Source: a bacterium (GTDB lineage: Bacteria > SZUA-182 > DTGQ01). From it: a stretch of 64,000 nt of DNA. Position 1 is the first letter of the stretch. Each line of letters opens with the position of its first letter. Under the pieces are notes generated by a model that saw only the letters and a list, made by a program, of their open reading frames with translations, made no database searches and was not told the DNA's origin. A program made the position numbers and the translations under genes. The stretch is from assembly GCA_040755755.1 (NCBI GenBank), contig JBFLZW010000042.1, positions 1 to 64,000 of the forward strand. Reading direction: 5' to 3'. Positions 9,309 through 64,000 of this stretch are shown piece after piece.

Positions 9309-9411
9309 TACGGTAAAGATGATATCTTTATATCATAGACTGGGAATCGCCGATATGATAATCTCATGTCCTGGGGGATACAGAAGATAACTATGAGAAA
9401 GGGTTGAGAAT

Positions 9412-10203
9412 ATGAAACTTCCTATCTATCAGATCGATGCTTTTACCAGCAAAGTTTTTTCCGGCAATCCGGCAGCGGTATGTCCGCTTGAGCAATGGAT
9501 TGACGACACCCTGATGCAGGCCATTGCGGAGGAGAACAACTTGTCTGAAACAGCCTTCTTTGTTCCGGCAGAAGGAGGATATCACATCCGCTGGTTTACT
9601 CCGGTGGCCGAGATCGGCCTGTGCGGTCATGCGACTTTGGCGGCGGCCTTCGTTATTTTCACCTTTTTTGACCTGCCGGGTCAGGGTAATGAAATTGTCT
9701 TTTTCTCCCGAAGTGGCGAGCTTAAGGTCACGCAGCAGAGCCAGGGGATGCTGGCGATGGATTTTCCTTCCCTGGTACCCGCACTGTGCAGCGCCATACC
9801 GCAGGATTTGCTGGAAGGGCTTGGCAAAGAGCCCCGGGAAGTGCTCTGCACAGAAGACTTTATGGCCGTCTTTCCCTGTGAAAGTGATATCGGGGAACTC
9901 AAGCCTGATATGGAAAAGCTCCGCAAACTTGGCCTGCGGGGGGTTATCATAACCGCACAAGGAGACGAGGCTGATTTTGTATCACGGTTTTTTGCCCCCA
10001 GATTCGGTATCGATGAAGATGCCGTCACCGGCTCTGCTCATTGCTCACTTATTCCTTTTTGGGCCAGGAGGTTGAATAAGAAAAGTCTGTATGCCCGGCA
10101 GTTGTCACGCCGGGGCGGAGAACTGTACTGCATGGACCGGGGAGACAGGGTCATCATATCGGGACGGGCCGTGAAGTATATGGAAGGAACAATTACGATT
10201 TGA
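9412..10203 (+). CDS. PhzF-family isomerase
   Basis: This 263-residue protein has the diaminopimelate-epimerase-like fold of PhzF. Residues 1-30 contain the family start (QIDAFTSKVFSGNPAAV), the catalytic Glu is in NLSETAF (about residue 46), and the second-domain block FGIDEDAVTGSAHCSL is present. PhzF itself isomerises a phenazine precursor, but most family members have unknown substrates, and no phenazine genes occur here. It lies between two toxin-antitoxin loci and is convergent with the antitoxin gene ending at 10300. Confidence 0.87.
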   Translation: MKLPIYQIDAFTSKVFSGNPAAVCPLEQWIDDTLMQAIAEENNLSETAFFVPAEGGYHIRWFTPVAEIGLCGHATLAAAFVIFTFFDLPGQGNEIVFFSRSGELKVTQQSQGMLAMDFPSLVPALCSAIPQDLLEGLGKEPREVLCTEDFMAVFPCESDIGELKPDMEKLRKLGLRGVIITAQGDEADFVSRFFAPRFGIDEDAVTGSAHCSLIPFWARRLNKKSLYARQLSRRGGELYCMDRGDRVIISGRAVKYMEGTITI

Positions 10204-43620: not shown

Positions 43621-43731
43621 GAGAAAACATGGCGTGCTGTTGGAAGAAGTAGTAGGTGATGGATAATTAGCAAGTTAGGTAAGAGTGCTCCCCCTAAATT
43701 AATGGCATATATTGCTCTTTTGGAATTAGAC

Positions 43732-46700
43732 GTGAAGAAAGCGGTCTCTATCATTGTATTCTGCGGTATTTGTATAATTTTCCCTCTTTCTCTTGCTCGC
43801 GCAGGGAACTACCATATCAAAGGCCAGAACCTGAACTGTTATGACTGTCATACTCTCCATTTCAGTCAGGATGGCGCTACTCCACAGGTTCCTGACGGAG
43901 CGCGGCCCTGGGGAGAAGGACCGCAGGATTACCTTTTAAAAAATACCACTTCCGAAATGTGTCTCATGTGCCACGATGGTTATAACCTCGAGGCACCGAA
44001 TGTCATGTATTCCACCTCCCGCGATTACCAAAGCTCAGCCGGTTATCTCGGTGAAGAGAAAAACGCCGACAGCGGAGTCTTCGGCCACACCCTGAACAGT
44101 CCCAACCCTCCCCCCGGGTATCAGGGAACATGGAACAGGACCCTGTCCTGTACTTCCTGTCACGATCCTCATGGCAATTCATATTATCGGAATCTTCGGC
44201 CAAAACCTTTAGCTGATTCTGCAAATTCTCCAGTGACGTATTTTATCGGCACGTCGGTGAGTGGAAATGAAGACAAGGGTATTCAGATCGCGGTTGATAG
44301 TGCCGATGCTTCCTCCTCACCCTATGATTTGACAAAAATCATTTACCGGCAGGAAGGAGAGGCAGGAGAGGATACGGTGGGGCTTTCCTTCTGGTGTGCC
44401 GGATGCCATCCGGCTTTCAATCAGCGGGGTGATGTCCAGGGGACAAGAACACTCCATCCGACCTATGGTATCACCATGTCCCAGGCCAAGCCCTCCATCA
44501 GCCAGTGGTGGTCAGCTACTGCCTCCGGGCCCCCGACCCGGCCTCCGACCGTAACGTCATCATCAGATACGGACCGGGGATCGGACCGCCCCTTTTGCGG
44601 GAGCTGTCATAAGGCTCATGGATCAACCCACCGCTACGGGCTGCTGTGGGAAAACCCTGCCAGTCCCGATCGAGAGGGGGGGCAGTATATGCGGGATACC
44701 TGTCAGGCCTGCCACCATATCGGGAACGGGCACTATGAATCCAGTCCGCACGCTGATCCAAATTTCGGGGTCTATCGGGTACCGGAATTCGGCAGGGGTG
44801 AGTGCGAGCAATGCCACCGGCAGCATGGCACCGCGAACAACCCTCAGGGCAATGCTCATAACCTGTTCGCCGAGAGCAATAAATCTTTTTGCCTGACTCC
44901 CGGATGTCACTGGGAAGTCCCGGCATCCTATCCGCTTTCGGAAGAAAAACTGCCGCAGGGGGCCAAAGCCCGGATCAGCCTGACGGTAGATGCCGGCAAT
45001 GATCGGGCCTTTCTCGGCTACTTTGAGCTGAATTCTGAAATCAACAATACAGCGGTACGGCTCGGCGGCCTCCAATACCGGGGTAGGTGGCCGGGAGCTT
45101 TGGCCTACAATAACGAGCAATATTCTCCTCACGGCAGGGAAAACGGGGCCATGCCCAACGAGGGTTCCTGCATGAACTGCCACAGCCCTCATGGTACCGA
45201 GAGCCGGTTTGATATGCTCCAGTTGCCCTATGAAGGAACCTCAGGATCAGGCATTGCAGGGGCGGACAATTATGAGCTGTGCCTGAGCTGCCATAGTGAG
45301 AATGGGCCGAGCGGCATGAGGCCGGAAACGAAAAGAATCGCTGACTACTACAGCCAGGATGACCTGTACTCAGGCCATAAGATCAAAAGTGACGGCGGTT
45401 TCGCCAGACCAGGGGATAAACTGGCCTGCTCAAACTGCCATAACCCGCATGGTTCAATGGGCAATAACCAAAGCGGACCAAACCTCCATCTTCTTTCCGA
45501 CGAGCGGCCGGGCTGGCGGGAGCTCGACACCCTGAATGATCCGAATTCTTCCCGCAGGTTCTGCTTTGGCTGCCATGTTCCCTCGAATAAGCCTGAAGTC
45601 AAGTCCGTCGTGGAAGGGATTACCATGAAGCCGATTCCCGACTTCGCTGAGCACCGGGATGGAGAGGGATCGACAGAGAGTTGTCACAGTTGTCATGGCA
45701 GCAGCTACGATGCCCCTGATTCGGAAAACGTTCATCATCTCTCACCAGGCAGTTGTGATAAATGCCATGCGGATCAGGGAGCCTGGCAGGCCAAAAAGTA
45801 CAGCGGCCCCCATGCCTATCATACGGATAAATACGCCTTTGCCTGTGAGGTTTGCCATGCACGAATGAACCATACAGCCGGCAAGGCCATTCATGGCAAT
45901 GGCAAAGCGCCCGGATCGAATTGCCAATATGCGCAAGTTTGCTTCCACGACGGGTCTGATTCAATCGAGTGGAAAAATCAGATTCTCCACCAAAAAACCT
46001 ACCGATACCGATCGTTGTATCACAATCCATATCTCGACAATGCCGGGATTACGCCAGGTTATGATGCCTCAACCTATGACCTGCCCGATACCTGCAAGGA
46101 GGATCCCATTGATCCCAATCGGGTTTTCTGGACCGATCAGAGCACCTTCAGCGGGCATAATTCGTGCAGTACTGTCTGGTGCCACAGTAATGCCAATCCG
46201 CTCAGTCTGCCGAACCATCCGCGGGAGAACAGCTATCAGGCTAACCCGTCTTTCGCCCTGACCTGGGACGATCACAACGCAAATCGGTGCAATAATTGTC
46301 ATGGCTTTATTGATCTCGATCAGCCAGCTGACACCTGGCAGCTTTCCTCGTACCATCGAAAGCATATCGTAGTCACTACCCCGAATAAAGACACAACCGG
46401 CATGGCCAAGATCCTGTGCACCAAGTGTCATGCCGGAACCTGCACGGATAACGAAAACACCATCCGGGAAGATATCGGGTATGCGAACCACGTCAATGGG
46501 AAAAAAGACATAATTTTTGCCGATCCCAATGGAAAATATGCCGCTGATCGCACCTGTAGTGTAAATTGCCACAGCCGTGACGGGAGGCTCCTTTCCGTTT
46601 CCTGGGAAGAGCAGAATCCCGAATCGGTCTGCGGCACCTGTCACGATGTTTTCGGTCCCGGCAGGACGATTTCCAAGGACGGGCATGCTGTTCACCTGAT

Positions 46701-49700
46701 TTCCGACCGGGGACCCGGTCCCCATTCACCGGAGCAGTGCAATGACTGTCATACCTCGCACGACGATCCGGCCCATTGCAACGGGGTGCCAGACTTCAAG
46801 GATGGCCAGACCCTGGCTCAGACCTCGGTGTGCGATAAGTGCCATAGCCCTGGAGGCGACTATGATGGAGTGAACGATCCTTCCATCGGGGCCAAAGCCA
46901 ATTGGAAATCCGGCGGTGTATATGTCCAGGCTCCTGACGGGAAACTGGAGCTTAGGGGGGGCAGGGAGAAATGGTGTGTCGGCTGCCATGATAAGGAGCC
47001 TGCCGCCAGCCGCAGCGACGGTTCCGGCGTGAGTGCACCGAACGTGGCCGGAGATGAAACCGCTCTTACTCAATACGGGAGAGGGTATGGCTATTTCGTA
47101 ACCGGTCATGGTCTGGAAGAAGGCAAGTCCTATCCGGGCTCGGAGGAAAGAGGTGCCGGGGCTTCCTGCACGGATTGTCATGATGCCCGCCTTGGCCATA
47201 TCGACCATGCTCACCGGACATATTCAGCCAGCAGGAACAATTACCAGGCCGGCTACCGCCTTAAAGCCTCTGCCCTGGCGAATGATCCGGCCCGGCCGAT
47301 GGATATCCCCAGAACAGCGAGCACCGGCCCGAACAATAATCCTCAGCAATACTGGCAGGACTTTGCTCTCTGCTTCCAGTGCCACGACCGCTTTGCACTT
47401 TTGGGGAATGGAGTGAGCTCTGATCAAAGATACCTGAAAGATCCTCTGCAAACGAATTTTTATAACAGCAGCTATCTCTATGAAAACAGCGATAAGAGTG
47501 TCAATCTGCACCTTTCCCACTTGTCCGGAAGAGGCGGCGGGGGCAACAATCCCGATTGGACATCCAGTTGGAACAGCACGGGGGATTCTGCCATGAGCTG
47601 TCCTGCCTGCCATAATGTCCACGGCTCCCCAACTCCCCGGATGATGCGTCATGGTGAGCTTATCAGCACTCCGGGTACTTCGGATAAGGTTCCGGGCCTG
47701 AATTTCCGGTATCAGCCATCGGGTTCGACTCTGCCCGGAAGCACGGGAGGGGAGATTTTCAGCCAGTTCAGCGCGGGAAGAGGTACAATTTCACAGAACA
47801 GGATTTGTGAGACCTGCCATCCAGCCTATGTGAAATATACCCGGACACCGTATATCAACCCTGACAATATCAATCCTCAAATCGAGAGTGTTGTGGCCTG
47901 GAATGGTCCCACCGGCGGCAGGGGAATCGACGATGGAGATCAATTGGTTATTACCTTTACCACGGCCACCAATGGCCCGCAAGTGATCAAGCTGCCGGAA
48001 GATGTGAAATTCGGCATCAAGATTTATGGAGACAGTAACTGCACCCTGGAAAAAGCATGGAGCACCCCCGCCAATATTGAATGGTCGTCAGCAGGCGGCC
48101 GTTCCAATGATACTTTGCGCCTGATCCTGCGGAAGGAGGGTACGGACATTGCCATTGGCGATTATCTGAGAGTGCTTCCGGGAAATCTCGAGGGAATTGT
48201 CGGCGGCATTAGCCGTCAGATTGACTCGTCGAGGGAGATGACGGGGACATTCGATTGTGCCCTGGTCAGGGTCTGTGCAGAAAATCAATCTCAGAGTGAG
48301 GAGCCGGGAATTCAGGAGGGAGATCAGGTAACTGTTTACTTTTCAGGGTCCATCGATGTCGGCAGTGGAGGCACTTCGCTGACTGCGGCCAATATTGATC
48401 AGGCCCTGCGGCTGAGCAGCGGCCATACCTGGGGGCAGGTAAAGGAGATCAGGTGGAATGCTCCTGCCAATGATACTCTGACCATAATCCTTGGCAATGA
48501 ACAGCCTGCGGCCACAATTGCAGTTGGAGACAGTATCACCCTGGGGGATATCATCCGCGATCAATCTGCAAATATCTTAAGCGGCTCAGCCATACTTGAA
48601 GGATCGTTTGATTCTTATCCCCTGCTCAGCCCGCTGGCTGTATACAGCTCTAATATTCCGGGTCCGCCCTGGGGTAATACTATGAAATCGATCGATGGAG
48701 ACCCCAATACCCTCTGGTTCCTTGGCCCTTCGGCGGAAGGAAAGATCAGTTACGATCTGGGAACAATGTACCGAGTTTCCAGGGTTTGGATTTCCAGCGG
48801 TGGCAGTGGAGGAAATGCTTCGGCAAAAGTCTGGGTTACCGCCGGTCCGGAGTATGACGAAACAGCTCCGACTCTTGACTCCTGGCAGATACCGGTAACT
48901 CAAGGGTGGCATTCCAGTCCCCAATTCGATGCCGTAGGCCGGTATTTACGGATCGAGGCCAGGAAAATCGGGAACGGTCCTCTCGGTGAGTTGTTTCATG
49001 AAGTGGCATTCCAGGGAACGACCGCGCTTCCCCATGTCAATCCCCGAATCCTTGGTGTAGAGGCTCGGAACAATGCCTCAGGCGGTGCGGGAGTTGATGA
49101 CGGGGATCAGGTGGTTATTACCTTCAATGTATCCACCAACGGCCCTGAGGTGATCAGGGGGCCGGCTGACGTGGAATCGGTCCTGAGTGTGTATGGAGAT
49201 GCCAACCACAAGGTTGAAACCCGCAAGAGCTGGGGTACCCCCGGCAGTATCGAGTGGTCCGCTGCGGGCGGGCAGGCCAATGATACCCTCACCATAATCC
49301 TGAAAAAGGAAGGGGCTACCCTCGCTGCCGGAGATCATGTTGAGGTATCCTCCCTCAAGCTGAAGGCACGGGCAGGAGGGTTTGAACTTCCGATTATCTC
49401 ATCCCGGGTGATTACCGGAACCTTCGACTGCTCTCTGGCCAGGGCCGTTGCCGGAAATCAGTCACAGAGCCCGGAGCCGGGAATCCAGGAGGGCGATCAG
49501 GTGATCATCTCCTTTGCCGGGAAGACCTTTGGCAATGCGATAACCGCAGAGACGATCAACACGGCCTTGCAGGTAAATAACGGTCATTCCTGGGGTCAGG
49601 TCAAGGCCATCGAATGGAACGCCCCTGCCAATGATACCCTGAAGATAACCTTTGGCTCCGGCGCTCCGGTTCCCACAATCGCTGTTGGCGATACTATTAC

Positions 49701-51387
49701 CCTGGGCGATATTATCTGCGATCAATCCCAGCACCCGATCATAGGGTCGGTTACTCTCACAGGATCATTTGATCCGCCGGTGGCCACCTGGCGGACACCA
49801 GAGGCCATCCACAGCTTCAGCCCGACCTGGGGCGGGAATACCAATGCCGCAAGATCGATCGACAGCGATCCGAACACCATGTGGACTGTTCTGGACGGGA
49901 CAGCGCGTATTACCTATGATCTGAAAACGCAGCATCAGGTCTCCAGCATCCGGTTCTTCAGCACTAGTGGTGGGGTAAAAGTTTCGGTCAAGACCTGGGT
50001 CACCGATGAGCCGGTTTATGATCCCAACAATCCAACAACCGGCCCCTTCGAGATATCAGGAGTTTCAGGGTGGGCTGCAAGTCCGTATCAATTTTATTCC
50101 AAAGGCCGCTATCTCACCCTGGAGGTCAAAAAGCTGACTCCCGGACCTCTCAGCAGTTACATCGCCGAAGTGCAATACCAGGATGGTGAGATTCCGTTAC
50201 CTGATATCAGTCCGCAGATTCTCAAGGCTGAAGCCTTGAACAGCATCTCCGGCGGCACGGGAGTTGATGACGGGGACCAGATGGTCATTACCTTCAATGT
50301 ATCCACCAACGGCCCTGAGGTGATCAGGGGGCCGGCTGACGTGGAATCGGTCCTGAGTGTGTATGGAGATGCCAACCACAAGGTTGAAACCCGCAAGAGC
50401 TGGGGTACCCCCGGCAGTATCGAGTGGTCCGCTGCGGGCGGGCAGGCCAATGATACCCTCACCATAATCCTGAAAAAGGAAGGGGCTACCCTCGCTGCCG
50501 GAGATCATGTTGAGGTATCCTCCCTCAAGCTGAAGGCACGGGCAGGAGGGTTTGAACTTCCGATTATCTCATCCCGGGTGATTACCGGAACCTTCGACTG
50601 CTCTCTGGCCAGGGCCGTTGCCGGAAATCAGTCACAGAGCCCGGAGCCGGGAATCCAGGAGGGCGATCAGGTGATCATCTCCTTTGCCGGGAAGACCTTT
50701 GGCAATGCGATAACCGCAGAGACGATCAACACGGCCTTGCAGGTAAATAACGGTCATTCCTGGGGTCAGGTCAAGGCCATCGAATGGAACGCCCCTGCCA
50801 ATGATACCCTGAAGATAACCTTTGGCTCCGGCGCTCCGGTTCCCACAATCGCTGTTGGCGATACTATTACCCTGGGCGATATTATCTGCGATCAATCCCA
50901 GCACCCGATCATAGGGTCGGTTACTCTCACAGGATCATTTGATCCGCCGGTGGCCACCTGGCGGACACCAGAGGCCATCCACAGCTTCAGCCCGACCTGG
51001 GGCGGGAATACCAATGCCGCAAGATCAATCGACAGCGATCCGAATACCCCCTGGTCCGTCCTGGACGGGACAGCACGAATTACCTATGATCTTGAACCGG
51101 AATATCAGACACAATATCAGGTTTCCCGCATTCGGCTCTTCAGCCGTGACAGCAGGGGGAAAGCTTCGGTAAAGGTCTGGGTTACCCCTGACCCGGTATA
51201 CGATCCGGAAGCTCCAACATATGGCCCTTATGAGATATCACAGGTTGCGGGGTGGGCCATAAGCCCTGAGTTTGACGCCAGAGGCCGGTATCTCACCCTG
51301 GATGTCAGGAAGCTGCTTCCCGGGCCTCTTGGCAACTGGATTGGCGAAATACAATTTTTCGGTATGGCTCCTCCTGCTTCTCCCTGA
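43732..51387 (+). CDS. Giant multiheme cytochrome with repeated adhesin-like domains
   Basis: This secreted protein of about 2551 residues starts at GTG 43732, which gives the clean signal VKKAVSIIVFCGICIIFPLSLARA; an ATG at 43702 is the alternative. Between 43839 and 47823 lie 24 CXXCH heme sites, many followed by PHG or HxHG as in doubled-CXXCH proteins. Three more candidates have CX4CH (44890, 46165) or CX3CH (46555) spacing. From about 47870 to the end come three copies of a module of about 390 residues: two Ig-like GDQxxITF domains plus a discoidin (F5/8 C)-like domain. Copies 2 and 3 share a 740-bp perfect DNA repeat. It is probably a surface electron-transfer protein that also binds a polymer, cell or mineral surface. 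Confidence 0.88.
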   Translation: MKKAVSIIVFCGICIIFPLSLARAGNYHIKGQNLNCYDCHTLHFSQDGATPQVPDGARPWGEGPQDYLLKNTTSEMCLMCHDGYNLEAPNVMYSTSRDYQSSAGYLGEEKNADSGVFGHTLNSPNPPPGYQGTWNRTLSCTSCHDPHGNSYYRNLRPKPLADSANSPVTYFIGTSVSGNEDKGIQIAVDSADASSSPYDLTKIIYRQEGEAGEDTVGLSFWCAGCHPAFNQRGDVQGTRTLHPTYGITMSQAKPSISQWWSATASGPPTRPPTVTSSSDTDRGSDRPFCGSCHKAHGSTHRYGLLWENPASPDREGGQYMRDTCQACHHIGNGHYESSPHADPNFGVYRVPEFGRGECEQCHRQHGTANNPQGNAHNLFAESNKSFCLTPGCHWEVPASYPLSEEKLPQGAKARISLTVDAGNDRAFLGYFELNSEINNTAVRLGGLQYRGRWPGALAYNNEQYSPHGRENGAMPNEGSCMNCHSPHGTESRFDMLQLPYEGTSGSGIAGADNYELCLSCHSENGPSGMRPETKRIADYYSQDDLYSGHKIKSDGGFARPGDKLACSNCHNPHGSMGNNQSGPNLHLLSDERPGWRELDTLNDPNSSRRFCFGCHVPSNKPEVKSVVEGITMKPIPDFAEHRDGEGSTESCHSCHGSSYDAPDSENVHHLSPGSCDKCHADQGAWQAKKYSGPHAYHTDKYAFACEVCHARMNHTAGKAIHGNGKAPGSNCQYAQVCFHDGSDSIEWKNQILHQKTYRYRSLYHNPYLDNAGITPGYDASTYDLPDTCKEDPIDPNRVFWTDQSTFSGHNSCSTVWCHSNANPLSLPNHPRENSYQANPSFALTWDDHNANRCNNCHGFIDLDQPADTWQLSSYHRKHIVVTTPNKDTTGMAKILCTKCHAGTCTDNENTIREDIGYANHVNGKKDIIFADPNGKYAADRTCSVNCHSRDGRLLSVSWEEQNPESVCGTCHDVFGPGRTISKDGHAVHLISDRGPGPHSPEQCNDCHTSHDDPAHCNGVPDFKDGQTLAQTSVCDKCHSPGGDYDGVNDPSIGAKANWKSGGVYVQAPDGKLELRGGREKWCVGCHDKEPAASRSDGSGVSAPNVAGDETALTQYGRGYGYFVTGHGLEEGKSYPGSEERGAGASCTDCHDARLGHIDHAHRTYSASRNNYQAGYRLKASALANDPARPMDIPRTASTGPNNNPQQYWQDFALCFQCHDRFALLGNGVSSDQRYLKDPLQTNFYNSSYLYENSDKSVNLHLSHLSGRGGGGNNPDWTSSWNSTGDSAMSCPACHNVHGSPTPRMMRHGELISTPGTSDKVPGLNFRYQPSGSTLPGSTGGEIFSQFSAGRGTISQNRICETCHPAYVKYTRTPYINPDNINPQIESVVAWNGPTGGRGIDDGDQLVITFTTATNGPQVIKLPEDVKFGIKIYGDSNCTLEKAWSTPANIEWSSAGGRSNDTLRLILRKEGTDIAIGDYLRVLPGNLEGIVGGISRQIDSSREMTGTFDCALVRVCAENQSQSEEPGIQEGDQVTVYFSGSIDVGSGGTSLTAANIDQALRLSSGHTWGQVKEIRWNAPANDTLTIILGNEQPAATIAVGDSITLGDIIRDQSANILSGSAILEGSFDSYPLLSPLAVYSSNIPGPPWGNTMKSIDGDPNTLWFLGPSAEGKISYDLGTMYRVSRVWISSGGSGGNASAKVWVTAGPEYDETAPTLDSWQIPVTQGWHSSPQFDAVGRYLRIEARKIGNGPLGELFHEVAFQGTTALPHVNPRILGVEARNNASGGAGVDDGDQVVITFNVSTNGPEVIRGPADVESVLSVYGDANHKVETRKSWGTPGSIEWSAAGGQANDTLTIILKKEGATLAAGDHVEVSSLKLKARAGGFELPIISSRVITGTFDCSLARAVAGNQSQSPEPGIQEGDQVIISFAGKTFGNAITAETINTALQVNNGHSWGQVKAIEWNAPANDTLKITFGSGAPVPTIAVGDTITLGDIICDQSQHPIIGSVTLTGSFDPPVATWRTPEAIHSFSPTWGGNTNAARSIDSDPNTMWTVLDGTARITYDLKTQHQVSSIRFFSTSGGVKVSVKTWVTDEPVYDPNNPTTGPFEISGVSGWAASPYQFYSKGRYLTLEVKKLTPGPLSSYIAEVQYQDGEIPLPDISPQILKAEALNSISGGTGVDDGDQMVITFNVSTNGPEVIRGPADVESVLSVYGDANHKVETRKSWGTPGSIEWSAAGGQANDTLTIILKKEGATLAAGDHVEVSSLKLKARAGGFELPIISSRVITGTFDCSLARAVAGNQSQSPEPGIQEGDQVIISFAGKTFGNAITAETINTALQVNNGHSWGQVKAIEWNAPANDTLKITFGSGAPVPTIAVGDTITLGDIICDQSQHPIIGSVTLTGSFDPPVATWRTPEAIHSFSPTWGGNTNAARSIDSDPNTPWSVLDGTARITYDLEPEYQTQYQVSRIRLFSRDSRGKASVKVWVTPDPVYDPEAPTYGPYEISQVAGWAISPEFDARGRYLTLDVRKLLPGPLGNWIGEIQFFGMAPPASP
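49117..49856 (+). repeat. 740-bp direct repeat, copy 1
   Basis: This segment is identical base for base to 50287-51026 in my line-by-line comparison (offset 1170 bp). The first mismatches lie at 49116/50286 and 49857/51027. It encodes two Ig-like domains and the start of a discoidin-like domain of the giant cytochrome. Flanking sequence is still homologous but diverged. Confidence 0.93.
50287..51026 (+). repeat. 740-bp direct repeat, copy 2
   Basis: This is the second copy of the perfect repeat, in frame, 390 codons after copy 1. Total identity inside diverged flanks suggests recent gene conversion or unequal crossing-over rather than a fresh tandem duplication of the whole module. Short-read assemblies could collapse or misplace it. 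Confidence 0.93.
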
Positions 51388-58652: not shown

Positions 58653-59462
58653 GTGCCAAGCTACTTCAAAAGGCTAATATTACCCATTATGATCATGGTA
58701 GGGGCCATTATGCTGCCCCGGGTGCAAATTGCCTCCTCGGATGCCACCTTTGCGGATAACCGCTGTCTGCCCTGTCATGAAAATGTTTTCGATCAATTAC
58801 CAGCAAAAAGTGTACATAAGCCCTTCGAGGAAAGAAAATGTTACCAGTGCCACCAGTCCCAGTTTCCGGGGCTGTTAGAGCACTCATTCACTTTTCCGGA
58901 GCTTGCTCCTGACCATACCTTTGCTTTTGCATTGAAAGGGTTTGGGGCGGAAAATGCACTTCAGGTATCTTCGCTCTATTCTTTTTCTCCCAGAGATATT
59001 GATATCAACGGTGCAGCATTGAGCTTTCCCGGCTCGGACGGCTTTCCCCGGATCAGTATTGTCAGAGATGTCCGACAGACTGACATTCTCAAGCTCAGTT
59101 GGACGACAACCGGGCCAAAGAGCTGCATCCTCGAATGGGGTGAGCTGCAAGGCTCAATGGGTCAGACCCAATCGGTTCATGTTGAAAAATTGCCCCTTGG
59201 GGTGGAGATTGGCATTACAGCCTGCTATCAGTGTCATCCGAAAAATAAGCTGGGCATATCCCATCCGGTGAATGTTGTGCCTTCTCCGAATATACGGGAA
59301 AAAATGAAAACCTCCGGTCTGCCAACCGGGAAAAATGGATTATTGCTGTGTGTCACCTGCCACTTCCCCCATGCGAGCGGCAAGGAATCCCTTGGGCGGA
59401 AAGCGGTCAGTGAGGAACTTTGCGTGGCCTGCCATTCAAAAGAGATTTATAATCCAGAATGA
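58653..59462 (+). CDS. Pentaheme c-type cytochrome
   Basis: This 269-residue protein has a signal peptide (ILPIMIMVGAIMLPRVQIASS) and five CXXCH motifs: CLPCH and CYQCH near the N-terminus, then, after a beta-rich insert of about 130 residues, CYQCH, CVTCH and CVACH. The two heme clusters flanking a non-heme domain are unusual. It may be the periplasmic partner that passes electrons to the barrel or to the giant cytochrome. Confidence 0.87.
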   Translation: MPSYFKRLILPIMIMVGAIMLPRVQIASSDATFADNRCLPCHENVFDQLPAKSVHKPFEERKCYQCHQSQFPGLLEHSFTFPELAPDHTFAFALKGFGAENALQVSSLYSFSPRDIDINGAALSFPGSDGFPRISIVRDVRQTDILKLSWTTTGPKSCILEWGELQGSMGQTQSVHVEKLPLGVEIGITACYQCHPKNKLGISHPVNVVPSPNIREKMKTSGLPTGKNGLLLCVTCHFPHASGKESLGRKAVSEELCVACHSKEIYNPE

Positions 59463-59511: not shown

Positions 59512-60081
59512 ATGGAGCATGTCCATCACAAGAGAAAATGGCTTAATCCCGGAATAAAAAGGGAGATGCAGCTTCGGATTTTCATCAGGATTTTGCTCAT
59601 CGTGGTTATCTCCTCAGTAATCAGCGGAAGCATTTTTTACCTTTACAGCAACCGGACAATCGAGTCAACGTACCGGCAGTTTCATGTTCAATTGCATAAT
59701 ATGCGGCAGGTCCTGATCCCCTGGACACTGGTGGCTCTTGGCCTTGGCGGATTTGCGGCTTTTGCGGCCGCACTCTTTTACCCCCAGAAAATAGCCGGTC
59801 CCATTTACCGGCTGGAACGGAAAATTCAGAGTATTGGCCGGGGAAACCTGAACGGGGAGATTCGACTGCGGCCAGGCGACGAGCTGCATGATCTGGCCAG
59901 AGAGATTAACCAGATGGGGGTCAGCTTACGAGAGCGGCTGCTGTCGGCCAGGAAGGCATCTGATCGGCTTGAGACCATGATCCGGGAAGACCTTTCCCGT
60001 CATTGTTCGCACGAAGTGGTTGACAAATTACACCATGAGAGCGTCGAGTTAAGAAGAATATTTGATGAATTTACCCTGTAG
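59512..60081 (+). CDS. HAMP-domain membrane protein
   Basis: This 189-residue protein has two transmembrane helices (about 23-45 and 69-92) and a HAMP domain starting at KIAGPIYRLERKIQSIGRG. The C-terminal helix (about 145-189) has no kinase, cyclase or methyl-accepting output. Such bare HAMP proteins recur beside secreted cytochrome genes in some metal reducers; the role is unknown. It overlaps the reading frame of the parvulin gene only if that gene starts at 60062. Confidence 0.72.
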   Translation: MEHVHHKRKWLNPGIKREMQLRIFIRILLIVVISSVISGSIFYLYSNRTIESTYRQFHVQLHNMRQVLIPWTLVALGLGGFAAFAAALFYPQKIAGPIYRLERKIQSIGRGNLNGEIRLRPGDELHDLAREINQMGVSLRERLLSARKASDRLETMIREDLSRHCSHEVVDKLHHESVELRRIFDEFTL

Positions 60082-60088
60082 GACCGGT

Positions 60089-61450
60089 ATGTCTTTATCG
60101 AAATCATACCACCGGATCGATTTTTTCTTTCTTGCCGTGGTAGTGCTTTTTATTCCCGTCACCAGTAGTTGTATTTCCTCCCTGCGACCGAAAAGTAAGG
60201 TCATCGCACGTATCGATAATTTTCTCATCACCGGCGATGATCTCATGGAGGAACTGCGGCGGTTCCATCTCCGGATGATGCGCTCCGGGCAGGCCACTAA
60301 TCTTGATATTTCCGGTTTTCTCAATGAGCTGATCGACCGCAGGCTTATCATCCAGGAAGCGCAGCGAATGGGGCTTGACCGCGATCCCGGTTTCAGGAGG
60401 GCATTGGCTGACGAAAAGGAGCGCATCTGCCTTGAATTGCTCCGCAGGGAAAAGATCGAAAAGCCTGCCGGATCACTGACCCAGGAGGATATCGATTCAT
60501 ACTTCCAGGCCACTGGCCAGCCTTCACCCCGATTGTCCAACCTGAGCCGCATTGAAGCGCATAAGGTGAAGATGTGGAAGGAGGAAAAGCACAGTCAGGC
60601 TTATGTGCAGGAATTGAGGCAGCGGGCAAAAATCGAGATTTTCGAATCGAGGATGGCTGATCCGACAGCCCTGCGGAAGAGTTCGGATCCGGTTGCCCTC
60701 GTCAATGGAGAGGATATCCGTGGTCAGGACCTCTTCGAGGGAATAACGGCCAGGGATGACGCCGGGCCTTCGGCCACGGGGACCCGAAAGGAGCTTGACC
60801 GTCTGATCGGCTATTGGCTGCTGCGGCAGGAGGCCAACCGGCTGGGATATCCGGCCAGAAAAGAAGTAAAAGACCATATGCGGCGGTATGAGGAGGATCT
60901 TCTCTACCGGACCTTGTGTCAAAAAGTGATCGCCTCGAAGGTGCAGGTTGAGCGTGAAGAGATAGAACGCTACTACCAGGACAACCGCTCCAATTTTACG
61001 ACTGATACGATGGTTTCTCTTGACGAGATCAGGGTCAGGGATCCGAATTCAGCCCGGGAAATTCATCGTGAATTGCTCCAGGGAGCTGACTTTGCCTTTC
61101 TGGCCAGCCAGAGGGCCTCGGAGTTGCCGGGTGGCCAGCCCGACAGCGGAAAGTGGGTATCGGTTCAAAAGATGCGGCCAGAGTTAAAGCTCCTGGTATC
61201 GGACCTGAAAGAAGGGGAGATAAGCGCCCCCGTACGATTGGGCGAAGAGTATTCCATTTTCAGGGTAAAGGGGAAAAAGGGCGGAGAACAGATCCCCCTG
61301 GAAAAAGCCAGGGTATGGATCGAACAGGAGATAGGCGGGATGAAAGCCCGCTCGGTGACTCAGGAACTGGTCCAGCGCCTGCGGGCGGATTCCAAAGTCG
61401 TTATTGATGAGCGTAACCTGCGCGAATTGACCTCAGCATATCAACCTTGA
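60089..61450 (+). CDS. PpiC-type peptidyl-prolyl isomerase lipoprotein
   Basis: This protein of about 453 residues has a signal and likely lipobox ending in a Cys (VVLFIPVTSSCISS), SurA-like chaperone helices (about 40-310) and a parvulin domain (about 320-420: SLDEIRVRDPNSAREIHREL, LPGGQPDSGKWVS, LKEGEISAPVRLGEEYSIFRV). It would fold exported proteins in the periplasm. Start 60089 follows AGGA; 60062 lies inside the previous gene. Parvulins are recurrent neighbours of extracellular cytochromes, which need help to fold around many hemes. Confidence 0.82.
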   Translation: MSLSKSYHRIDFFFLAVVVLFIPVTSSCISSLRPKSKVIARIDNFLITGDDLMEELRRFHLRMMRSGQATNLDISGFLNELIDRRLIIQEAQRMGLDRDPGFRRALADEKERICLELLRREKIEKPAGSLTQEDIDSYFQATGQPSPRLSNLSRIEAHKVKMWKEEKHSQAYVQELRQRAKIEIFESRMADPTALRKSSDPVALVNGEDIRGQDLFEGITARDDAGPSATGTRKELDRLIGYWLLRQEANRLGYPARKEVKDHMRRYEEDLLYRTLCQKVIASKVQVEREEIERYYQDNRSNFTTDTMVSLDEIRVRDPNSAREIHRELLQGADFAFLASQRASELPGGQPDSGKWVSVQKMRPELKLLVSDLKEGEISAPVRLGEEYSIFRVKGKKGGEQIPLEKARVWIEQEIGGMKARSVTQELVQRLRADSKVVIDERNLRELTSAYQP

Positions 61451-61567: not shown

Positions 61568-62362
61568 ATGATTCTACGGTTAGATAATAGTAATTTTTTT
61601 ACTGAGCCGATGTTTCAGTTCTTAAAACAATGTTACAAATTTGTAAATCAAGAATGGCAGCATGCTGTTCGTGAACAATTGCCTGACCAAGGCTTTGAGT
61701 TACGCTTCCGTGAAAGTTGTGTGAAACATCTTTCAGATTGGAATATCTCTCAAGGGCACGAAATGTGCCTCGGATGCGGGCTTGACACTGCGTCTGGTGT
61801 ATTACATGAAGTTGATATTGTTGCACAGCATCCAGATTTAACAGCCATTCTTGAGATAAAAAACCGCCAGACCTTTCCGCCTGATAAAAACGATGTAATC
61901 ATCTTTTTTGCAAAGATTTTCGATTACTTGGCTCTTAATCCAACTCTTTTGTTAAAAGAAATATGTCCTGCATTTATGTCTAACACTCACTTTGAGGAGA
62001 GTGCATTAGCTGCCTGTTTAGGATTAGGAATTCATCCAATTGGACCTGATTTGCGGCCTCTGCCGATTCTTTTTGATAACGCAGGGAGGATGGAAGTCGA
62101 GCGGCAAAAAGGTACTGTATTGCCTTCGGATGTGCTTGACCAGTTTGAAGATTTTTGTGCTCAACTCAACCGCTTTTGCTCTATTCTCAGTGAGACGTGG
62201 TTGAGTAGTCGATGTGGTTACCAGTCAGAGGACCGGATTGTGCTCAGAGCTGCAGGATATCTGCATACACGAGAATTAAGTCAGGAATTTAGGCAGCTTA
62301 ATAATGATTGCTCACGATTGGTAGGTGAGTTTAAAAAGGCAAAACATGGGGCTGCTGTATGA
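61568..62362 (+). CDS. PD-(D/E)XK nuclease-like protein of an accessory module
   Basis: This 264-residue protein is one I do not recognise as a whole. The segment HEVDIVAQHPDLTAILEIKN fits a PD-(D/E)XK nuclease core (Asp in EVD, then E-I-K), and a short Cys pair, CLGCG, precedes it. The rest is alpha/beta and then helical. No signal peptide. It starts an AT-richer cluster and overlaps the next gene by 4 bp. A nuclease beside a P-loop ATPase suggests a defence or mobile-element function; this is inference. Confidence 0.6.
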   Translation: MILRLDNSNFFTEPMFQFLKQCYKFVNQEWQHAVREQLPDQGFELRFRESCVKHLSDWNISQGHEMCLGCGLDTASGVLHEVDIVAQHPDLTAILEIKNRQTFPPDKNDVIIFFAKIFDYLALNPTLLLKEICPAFMSNTHFEESALAACLGLGIHPIGPDLRPLPILFDNAGRMEVERQKGTVLPSDVLDQFEDFCAQLNRFCSILSETWLSSRCGYQSEDRIVLRAAGYLHTRELSQEFRQLNNDCSRLVGEFKKAKHGAAV

Positions 62363-63447
62363 AAATTACAAGCTACAATATAACCGATGTTAGTTATCAT
62401 TATATAGGACTTCGGGTATTAGCGGGCCTATCCTCAACAGCGCGCAGAGAGGAACAAACAAGTGCTATCTCACGCAATGTTCTGAAATATGTCAGTGATA
62501 AGGCCCTGCGTCTGATGTTGCCGGAGCCAAAGGGAACTTTTGAGACAATTGGAGAAAAAGTCTGCCAGGAATTGGTACATTTTCAGTTTGCCCGATCTAT
62601 CAAGGGATCCTACCAACTGACTGATACTGGTAAGCACGTTCTCTCCTTGTTGAATGAGGGTAACTACGTTGAATTACGCCGTACGATGGTGACGGCTCAT
62701 CTCCAAGTGTATGATAATCTGCGATCTATTGTACAAAAGTATCTTGATATAGGGTGCATCTGGTTGCCAATTGTCGAAGCCGGGCATCTTAGCATGGATG
62801 GTTATATCCAGTGGTTGCTTGAACCAACATTTAACGGTGAAGCTTCTACTCTTGCATCTGCTGTTTTGAAAAATATTCAGGGTAAAAGTCCCAAAAAAGT
62901 GGAAGATGCTTTAAGAGAAATCATTTTGCGCAAGGTTTTCTCTGATATATCAATTAGCGTACCACTTTTCCATGCCCTTTGTGACCGTTTGGTCAGCCTG
63001 CGGCTATTGAATGTAATGCGAGCCAATATCCAAGGTAGAGAGTTTGCCAAGAGTTATTCACCCTGTGTAGCCGCTTCACCGCCGCATGAGTGGTATATAC
63101 CATTGAACGTTTCACTTGCTTCTGGTGGGACTTTCATGCTCTATTTTTGCGAGCCAAACATGGCAGATAAAGCTACTCAGGCCGAATTGGTAAGCGCACT
63201 GGACAAGGCGTTTTCTGAATTGCCTTCAAAGGCGGGATATTACGATTTACCCGAAGTGCGCGATTTTGTATGTGCGCATCTGAGAATCCCTGATGCAGCT
63301 TTTGATGAAGGAATCAATTATCTGCTTGACCAGAAGCCATCGGTTTTGACTGTTGGTTTGCACTATGAAGGCATCTCTGGCCGCCGTAAACCACTTTCAC
63401 GGAGCCGTGAGACAAGCCAGCTCTACAATCTTGTAAGGAGAGTATAA
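62359..63447 (+). CDS. Unknown protein of the accessory module
   Basis: This 362-residue cytoplasmic protein has no recognised domain. The segment FETIGEKVCQELVHFQFARS followed by YQLTDTGKHVLSLLNEG resembles a winged-helix pattern (about 72-100), and the C-terminal half is mixed alpha/beta. It may be a DNA-binding or adaptor subunit. ATGA coupling with the gene before and TAATG coupling with the ATPase after indicate one operon. Confidence 0.6.
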   Translation: MKITSYNITDVSYHYIGLRVLAGLSSTARREEQTSAISRNVLKYVSDKALRLMLPEPKGTFETIGEKVCQELVHFQFARSIKGSYQLTDTGKHVLSLLNEGNYVELRRTMVTAHLQVYDNLRSIVQKYLDIGCIWLPIVEAGHLSMDGYIQWLLEPTFNGEASTLASAVLKNIQGKSPKKVEDALREIILRKVFSDISISVPLFHALCDRLVSLRLLNVMRANIQGREFAKSYSPCVAASPPHEWYIPLNVSLASGGTFMLYFCEPNMADKATQAELVSALDKAFSELPSKAGYYDLPEVRDFVCAHLRIPDAAFDEGINYLLDQKPSVLTVGLHYEGISGRRKPLSRSRETSQLYNLVRRV

Positions 63448-64000
63448 TGGTAGTACTTCCTAAAAGGAGTATTGGTGTTAGCAAGTCACTTTATTCACCA
63501 CTTGGGCTTAAGGATCTGCCATTTCCAACTGAGCCTGTAGTCGATCCTTATAACAATGATCCCCGCCGAAATGGTGCTATCTATGCAGAGTCGCCTGTAA
63601 AGCGCGAAATTGAAAAATTTGAGCAATTGCTCATCCGTCCTAATGATTTTCCCAATCGTGTTCGTTTGTCGTATCTTTGGTCAAAGGGAGATAGAGAGAG
63701 CGGACGTGGTATGGGTAAGACTGCACTGCTACGCTATTTCAGGCAAAGGATAAATAGGGATTGGGGACAAACTGAATTTAACGGGCAATTTTCGGCTGTC
63801 GTTGTTTATGTTGCATTTCCATCTCAGGTAGACAGGCGGTATATGGAGCAGTTGGCATGGTCTGCCCTAGTCGATATTTGTAAGAACGGTGTACTCAACG
63901 ACTCACGAGCAGTTCTTCGGCTTGAAGCACTGACACCAGAACAAGGGGATTTGGTACTGCAATGTCCAGATGGCAGCCATAATCCAGATAATTTGCTCGA
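63447..64000 (+). CDS. P-loop ATPase of the accessory module (cut by window end)
   Basis: The frame starts at ATG 63447 (overlapping the previous TAA; AAGGAG at 63435) and stays open to the window edge, giving 184 codons. About residue 80 it shows GDRESGRGMGKTALLRYF, a Walker A motif (GRGMGKT). A strand AVVVYVAFPSQ follows. The C-terminal part lies outside the window, so the family cannot be fixed. It is likely an AAA/STAND-type ATPase acting with the nuclease-like protein upstream. Confidence 0.7.
   Translation, partial: MVVLPKRSIGVSKSLYSPLGLKDLPFPTEPVVDPYNNDPRRNGAIYAESPVKREIEKFEQLLIRPNDFPNRVRLSYLWSKGDRESGRGMGKTALLRYFRQRINRDWGQTEFNGQFSAVVVYVAFPSQVDRRYMEQLAWSALVDICKNGVLNDSRAVLRLEALTPEQGDLVLQCPDGSHNPDNLL

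Follow-up and report, generated by a model that had tools for sequence, protein, structure and literature searches.

Operons centred on mobile Orc/Cdc6 ATPases, in which the ATPase gene is accompanied by genes for an REase and a multi-wHTH protein, have been predicted to function in defence (PMC10853773). One subtype of these operons encodes the REase as a fusion with an ASCH domain, and HerA/FtsK together with an inactive REase is found in other versions (PMC10853773). In the same work, SspB and SspC were proposed to act as an Orc/Cdc6 ring on DNA that moves with a multi-wHTH subunit, and transposon ATPases such as that of Tn7 were said to be included in the ORC/Cdc6 family (PMC10853773). BrxD has been described as a stand-alone ORC-Cdc6 ATPase (PMC12839542).

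In this study, we analyzed a three-gene cassette at the right edge of a 64,000-base stretch of bacterial DNA (the window). The window opens contig C42 (85,549 bp), one of the 88 contigs in the assembly of genome G000. The features discussed below are as follows:

60062..61450, plus strand: SurA/PPIase-like gene in the left flank, outside the module (Pfam Rotamase_2)
61568..62362, plus strand: gene 1, predicted PD-(D/E)XK nuclease, 264 aa
61697-61699 (E44), 61814-61816 (D83) and 61853-61861 (E96-x-K98), plus strand: catalytic set of gene 1, invariant in relatives
62359..63447, plus strand: gene 2, probable two-wHTH DNA-binding protein, 362 aa
about 62473-62673 and 63157-63363, plus strand: putative winged-helix regions of gene 2, from a low-confidence model
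63447..64805, plus strand: gene 3, predicted AAA+ ATPase, 452 aa in full, with only 63447..64000 inside the window
63702-63722, plus strand: Walker A motif of gene 3, GRGMGKT

The SurA/PPIase-like gene is a member of a host cytochrome cluster and marks the left side of the cassette. The frame of gene 3 is still open at position 64000, and its end, 805 bases past the window, was found on contig C42; past 64805 the host cluster resumes with multihaem cytochrome genes, which lie outside the module. Consecutive genes overlap, as an earlier sequence-only reading of this DNA had claimed, with 4 bases shared by genes 1 and 2 and one base shared by the stop of gene 2 and the start of gene 3. That reading had also described the three genes as AT-richer than the rest of the window, which agrees with their GC contents (0.414, 0.443 and 0.437 for genes 1, 2 and 3, respectively) when compared with the 38 window ORFs of at least 200 aa (mean 0.519, sd 0.037), the lowest values among these 38 being those of genes 1 and 2. 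The difference was also visible at third codon positions (GC3 0.34-0.41 in the cassette vs 0.56-0.63 in flanking genes). A scan of the cassette for promoters and terminators revealed sites no more numerous than in shuffled sequences. The three ORFs are real rather than chance frames, since all of them are kept at 48-71% identity and in the same order at three unrelated loci.

First, gene 1 could be assigned to the PD-(D/E)XK nuclease superfamily, which the conserved motif together with the structure matches of its predicted fold settles. E44, D83, E96 and K98 were invariant across the six related nucleases that were aligned, whose identities go down to 20%. The AlphaFold2 model (pLDDT 73.5, pTM 0.76), which was built on a four-sequence alignment and was the one good model out of five, contains a helix (43-54), two strands (83-88 and 91-98), a second helix (107-123) and a further strand (131-138). 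The EIK motif pointed out earlier thus corresponds to E96-x-K98 of the PD-(D/E)XK site and lies inside the predicted nuclease fold. The best Foldseek and VIA-align matches of residues 39-164 were mostly PD-(D/E)XK enzymes; AF1548 was the best VIA-align match (Z 9.0, rmsd 3.1, 109 residues), EndoMS also matched (Z 8.8, rmsd 3.0, 103 residues), and Cdn1, LmuA, N.BspD6I, FokI, McrC, BglII and Avs3 were found at lower levels. These Z values are moderate, Foldseek gave nothing at E < 0.001, and the weight is carried by the motif and the consistency of the match list. Neither fold nor motif indicates the substrate. A Pfam search found no ASCH domain in gene 1, a stand-alone nuclease of 264 aa.

Second, gene 3 is an AAA+ ATPase by its Walker A and Walker B motifs. 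The Walker A motif that the sequence-only reading had named is present (GRGMGKT), and a Walker B motif (LFIDDIE) sits beyond the window edge. Both motifs (the former as GRG-M/V-GKT) are kept in all four orthologues of the close relatives described below (type A cassettes), and G-R-G-x-G-K, D278, E281 and H323 are retained in the aligned distant ATPase relatives. Pfam matches to AAA_16 (E 0.0035) and to the ORC-CDC6-like family PF24389 (E 0.016) were both below the cut-off. A distant link to the PF10923 BrxC/BrxD-type ATPases was obtained with a profile of the more diverged type B sets, through an ATPase of genome G584; gene 3 itself matched neither PF10923 nor the PADLOC BrxD model, and an hhalign comparison with the neighbouring BrxD-like protein of genome G634 was not significant. 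Gene 3 probably belongs to the ORC/Cdc6-BrxD group.

Finally, the nuclease and Walker ATPase calls of the sequence-only reading stood, and gene 2, to which it had given an unknown fold, could be narrowed to a probable DNA-binding protein. Its model was poor (pLDDT 51). Residues 267-335 matched wHTH/HTH structures (MntR, IdeR, LrpC and sigma factors), residues 39-105 weakly matched YodB, and the pattern YxLTxxGxxxLxLL at residues 85-98 reads as winged-helix type. These weak model-based matches suggest that gene 2 probably contains two wHTH regions. DndG-, Tn7- and BREX-type proteins were absent from its structure list, which is uninformative because the model is poor.

No family of Pfam, NCBIfam, PHROG or PADLOC covered any of the three proteins above cut-off, which is consistent with the earlier failure to match the module to a known system, and sequence searches of the PDB gave nothing meaningful. 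With regard to the neighbourhoods predicted in PMC10853773, which combine Orc/Cdc6, an REase and a DndG-like multi-wHTH protein, the cassette shares an AAA+ ATPase (ORC/Cdc6 being probable here), a PD-(D/E)XK-type nuclease, a separate multi-wHTH protein (wHTH being probable here), a mobile distribution and the occurrence of TIR among the partners. In contrast, it lacks the ASCH domain of one subtype (the subtypes being compared by description only), no HerA/FtsK partner, as used by another subtype, was recognised in the ORFs flanking the cassettes, part of which were searched with profiles, and gene 2 gave no match to DndG models. Our best reading from this comparison is that the cassette may represent a variant of this already predicted kind and would work as an ATP-dependent, restriction-type defence module. 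SspBCD is similar in pairing a multi-wHTH protein (the triple-wHTH SspB) with an Orc/Cdc6 ATPase (SspC), whereas the cassette has no sulfur-modification genes and no PADLOC match and carries a PD-(D/E)XK nuclease instead; PADLOC gave no match to DndG, SspB or SspC at E up to 1, within the sensitivity of HMMER. The likeness to type 2 BREX lies in gene 3, which resembles BrxD/PF10923 as a stand-alone ORC/Cdc6-type ATPase with the distant profile link via G584; however, PglZ, BrxC and a BREX methyltransferase are missing from the cassette, PADLOC gave no BREX match for the three proteins, and no BREX genes were recognised in the flanks. By membership tests on the sequences, the cassette is not BREX, Dnd/Ssp or Tn7.

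The cassette is flanked on both sides by genes of the multihaem cytochrome cluster, with the PPIase-like gene upstream and, downstream, proteins that carry 25, 16, 8, 14, 6, 3 and 28 CxxCH motifs. Genome G001, from the same genus, has no cassette at this place: only 226 bases separate its PPIase gene (56% identical to that of G000 over 462 aligned positions) from the downstream cytochrome gene (61% identical), and the outer flanking genes are also syntenic. Since the same flanking genes occur without the cassette in G001, the cassette appears to be an insertion, and its foreign composition favors a gain of the three genes in the G000 lineage over a loss in G001. The module does look foreign, as its AT-rich composition shows. 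The exact ends of the insertion could not be fixed by alignment with the empty site in G001, owing to the high divergence of the intergenic sequence. Within the cassette we recognised neither a transposase nor an integrase.

Among about a thousand genomes searched, only four close members were found. In addition to that of G000, complete type A cassettes with the same gene order and tight spacing were present in a Planctomycetaceae genome (locus L003), G634 (L017) and G677 (L018), with identities to the window proteins of 48-64% for gene 1, 51-62% for gene 2 and 64-71% for gene 3. As far as group searches tell, the four carriers belong to four different phyla. Each cassette occupies an unrelated genomic place, and none was found in the same-genus and same-family genomes searched. 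In both G000 and the Planctomycetaceae genome the cassette is located outside a defence island. In the latter it is bordered on one side by the start of a DUF7133 protein (about 130 N-terminal residues; L003 5586-5984) and on the other by a cytochrome-c C-terminus (9407-9926) in the same orientation, and these two pieces probably represent one gene whose middle was lost. A 9-base direct repeat, CTTCTACGA, is found close to both ends of this cassette; we rejected it as a target-site duplication, as its right copy probably falls in a coding region and repeats of about this length may plausibly arise by chance (shuffles give inverted matches of up to 10 bases). In G677, a Fic-family gene stops 30 bases upstream of gene 1. 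In G634, a DDE transposase gene that is probably a remnant comes after gene 3, and an SNF2-type helicase gene and a pair of BrxD-like genes lie about 2-7 kb from the cassette. This neighbouring run (L017 12510-17920) comprises two PF10923 BrxD-like ATPase genes, unknown genes and the SNF2-type helicase gene, and resembles Shango/BREX-related systems (SngB match). A further nuclease match, in G649, covered 45 residues with an internal stop among ribosomal-protein and RNA-polymerase genes and was rejected as chance.

More distant sets were also observed. On a plasmid of Azospirillum brasilense, genes for an ATPase, a middle protein and a nuclease (36% identity over 103 residues, E 7e-5) are followed by one for a 925-aa UvrD-type helicase, and the set sits among transposase-like genes. 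This plasmid was the only source of a relative in tblastn searches of phage and plasmid collections and in scans of viral contigs. Contig C22 of G000 itself bears another, diverged set (about 203252-206548; L039 9253-12549) in the order middle protein, ATPase, nuclease, whose proteins are 36% (ATPase), 34% (nuclease) and 30% (middle protein) identical to those of Azospirillum; these two sets are referred to as type B. A third arrangement was found in the planctomycete G952:

L033 9920-14849: gene run of TIR, middle protein and ATPase, then PIN (VapC-like) and DUF4365

The G952 ATPase belongs to the gene 3 family (E 1.4e-34), and no nuclease is visible on its contig as far as the contig end, which falls upstream. 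Profile searches connect the middle proteins: the G952 protein was found by type A at E 6e-5 and by type B at E 3e-8 in a database of 328 sequences in which no reversed decoy scored as well. A direct hhalign comparison of type A gene 2 with the type B middle protein was not significant, and the link between the two types for this protein holds only via G952.

The ATPase of G584 was found by the type B profile at E 3e-6 and matches PF10923 (BrxC/BrxD) at E 1.6e-14. It is encoded in an apparent operon (L044 4748-9100) together with a DNA methyltransferase, a Cas4/Csa1-type nuclease and a small protein of unknown family, directly before what look like genes for the modification and restriction subunits of a type III system. 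This operon may be a separate defence system. We claim relatedness to the cassette for the distantly related ATPase and not for the small protein, which was compared with gene 2. An overlapping trio in G021 (L045 5342-8725), encoding a wHTH-like protein, a 656-aa AAA/KAP-like ATPase and a Cas4-type nuclease, is similar in content only (ATPase E 2e-4) and is not claimed as a relative.

On balance, we lean towards the view that the cassette serves as an immune module of three genes, acquired horizontally and directed against invading DNA. An antiviral or anti-plasmid role would be the best interpretation drawn from context and analogy. The two-wHTH protein would recognise foreign DNA by some feature, the product of gene 3, an ORC/Cdc6-like ATPase, would assemble with it on DNA and spend ATP on loading, moving or licensing the complex, and the PD-(D/E)XK nuclease would then cleave the DNA. 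We infer that the three proteins may act in one complex in which ATP gates cleavage and whose target is phage or plasmid DNA. From their positions, the TIR protein of G952 and the UvrD-type helicase of Azospirillum could be alternative or extra effectors. A module is suggested by the shared gene content and order of the cassettes at unrelated places in four bacteria, each from a different phylum, by the diverged set of all three genes that G000 carries at another place, and by changes on the effector side, with UvrD added in Azospirillum and TIR replacing the visible nuclease in G952. Indirect support for defence comes from the sporadic transfer across phyla and insertion into an unrelated operon, from the Fic, BrxD-like pair, SNF2-type helicase, TIR, PIN and UvrD neighbours at various loci, from the distantly related G584 ATPase, whose apparent operon also holds DNA methyltransferase and Cas4/Csa1-type nuclease genes and adjoins a putative type III restriction-modification system, and from the prediction made for a very similar gene combination (PMC10853773). 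On the other hand, the location outside defence islands in two genomes, the poor gene 2 model, the sub-threshold ORC/Cdc6 matches of gene 3, the rarity of the family and a possible repair role of a nuclease-ATPase pair all count against this view. A broader proposal, which we put forward tentatively as possible rather than probable, is that these sets form an undescribed immune family with a core of a two-wHTH reader and an ORC/BrxD-like ATPase, spread horizontally across phyla as a compact cassette, in which the effectors (PD-(D/E)XK nuclease, nuclease plus UvrD helicase, or TIR enzyme) would be swapped.

Several other explanations were considered. Tn7 encodes the TnsA nuclease, the HTH protein TniQ and the AAA+ ATPase TnsC, and the triad of nuclease, HTH protein and ATPase in the cassette parallels it. 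The cassette might accordingly be read as a degenerate or minimal Tn7-like element that has lost TnsB or needs it from elsewhere, a reading that fits the unrelated places of the cassettes, one of them within a probable single gene (L003), and the placement of Tn7-type transposon ATPases in the ORC/Cdc6 family (PMC10853773). However, the cassette has no TnsB and no other transposase that we recognised, and Pfam searches at E up to 1 did not find TnsA, TniQ, TniB or TnsC in it. Comparison of the two 200-bp flanks in each of five cassettes gave no inverted repeats beyond shuffled levels, and the interrupted Planctomycetaceae gene seems to miss its middle, unlike a clean transposition. We regard this explanation as unlikely. 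We consider it quite unlikely that the cassette is an accessory module for DNA repair or recombination, with a nuclease, an AAA+ loader and a DNA-binding protein serving host DNA metabolism. The repair nucleases EndoMS and Bax1 among the fold neighbours of gene 1 and the UvrD-type helicase of the Azospirillum version would agree with such a role, whereas the very sporadic occurrence, the absence from same-genus and same-family genomes and the AT-rich foreign composition do not follow a core-repair pattern. A toxin-antitoxin-like or selfish addiction module appears improbable: the cassette is compact, mobile and at times next to Fic or PIN genes, but its three proteins are large and conserved, none is antitoxin-like, and the partnership of a nuclease with an AAA+ ATPase is that of restriction-type systems. 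That the genes belong to the surrounding cytochrome/electron-transfer operon, with which they share strand and tight spacing, is hardly credible, given the syntenic G001 cluster without the cassette and the orthologous cassettes elsewhere that are not in such clusters.

Thus, the cassette offers an uncharacterised, testable module that crosses phyla, though of a type already predicted, and a concrete, experimentally approachable member of the Orc/Cdc6-centred conflict systems known from computational prediction (PMC10853773). It shows that such modules may sit outside defence islands, and it is small enough for direct testing in E. coli. If the immune reading is correct, a module of about 3.2 kb with no methyltransferase inside the cassette would make one ask how it distinguishes the DNA of its host from foreign DNA.

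The multihaem cytochrome cluster extends over 43702-51387 and 58653-59462 of the window and 64844-80000 of contig C42, with up to 28 CxxCH motifs per open frame. The part around the cassette is syntenic in G001, and the cluster resembles an extracellular electron-transfer locus.
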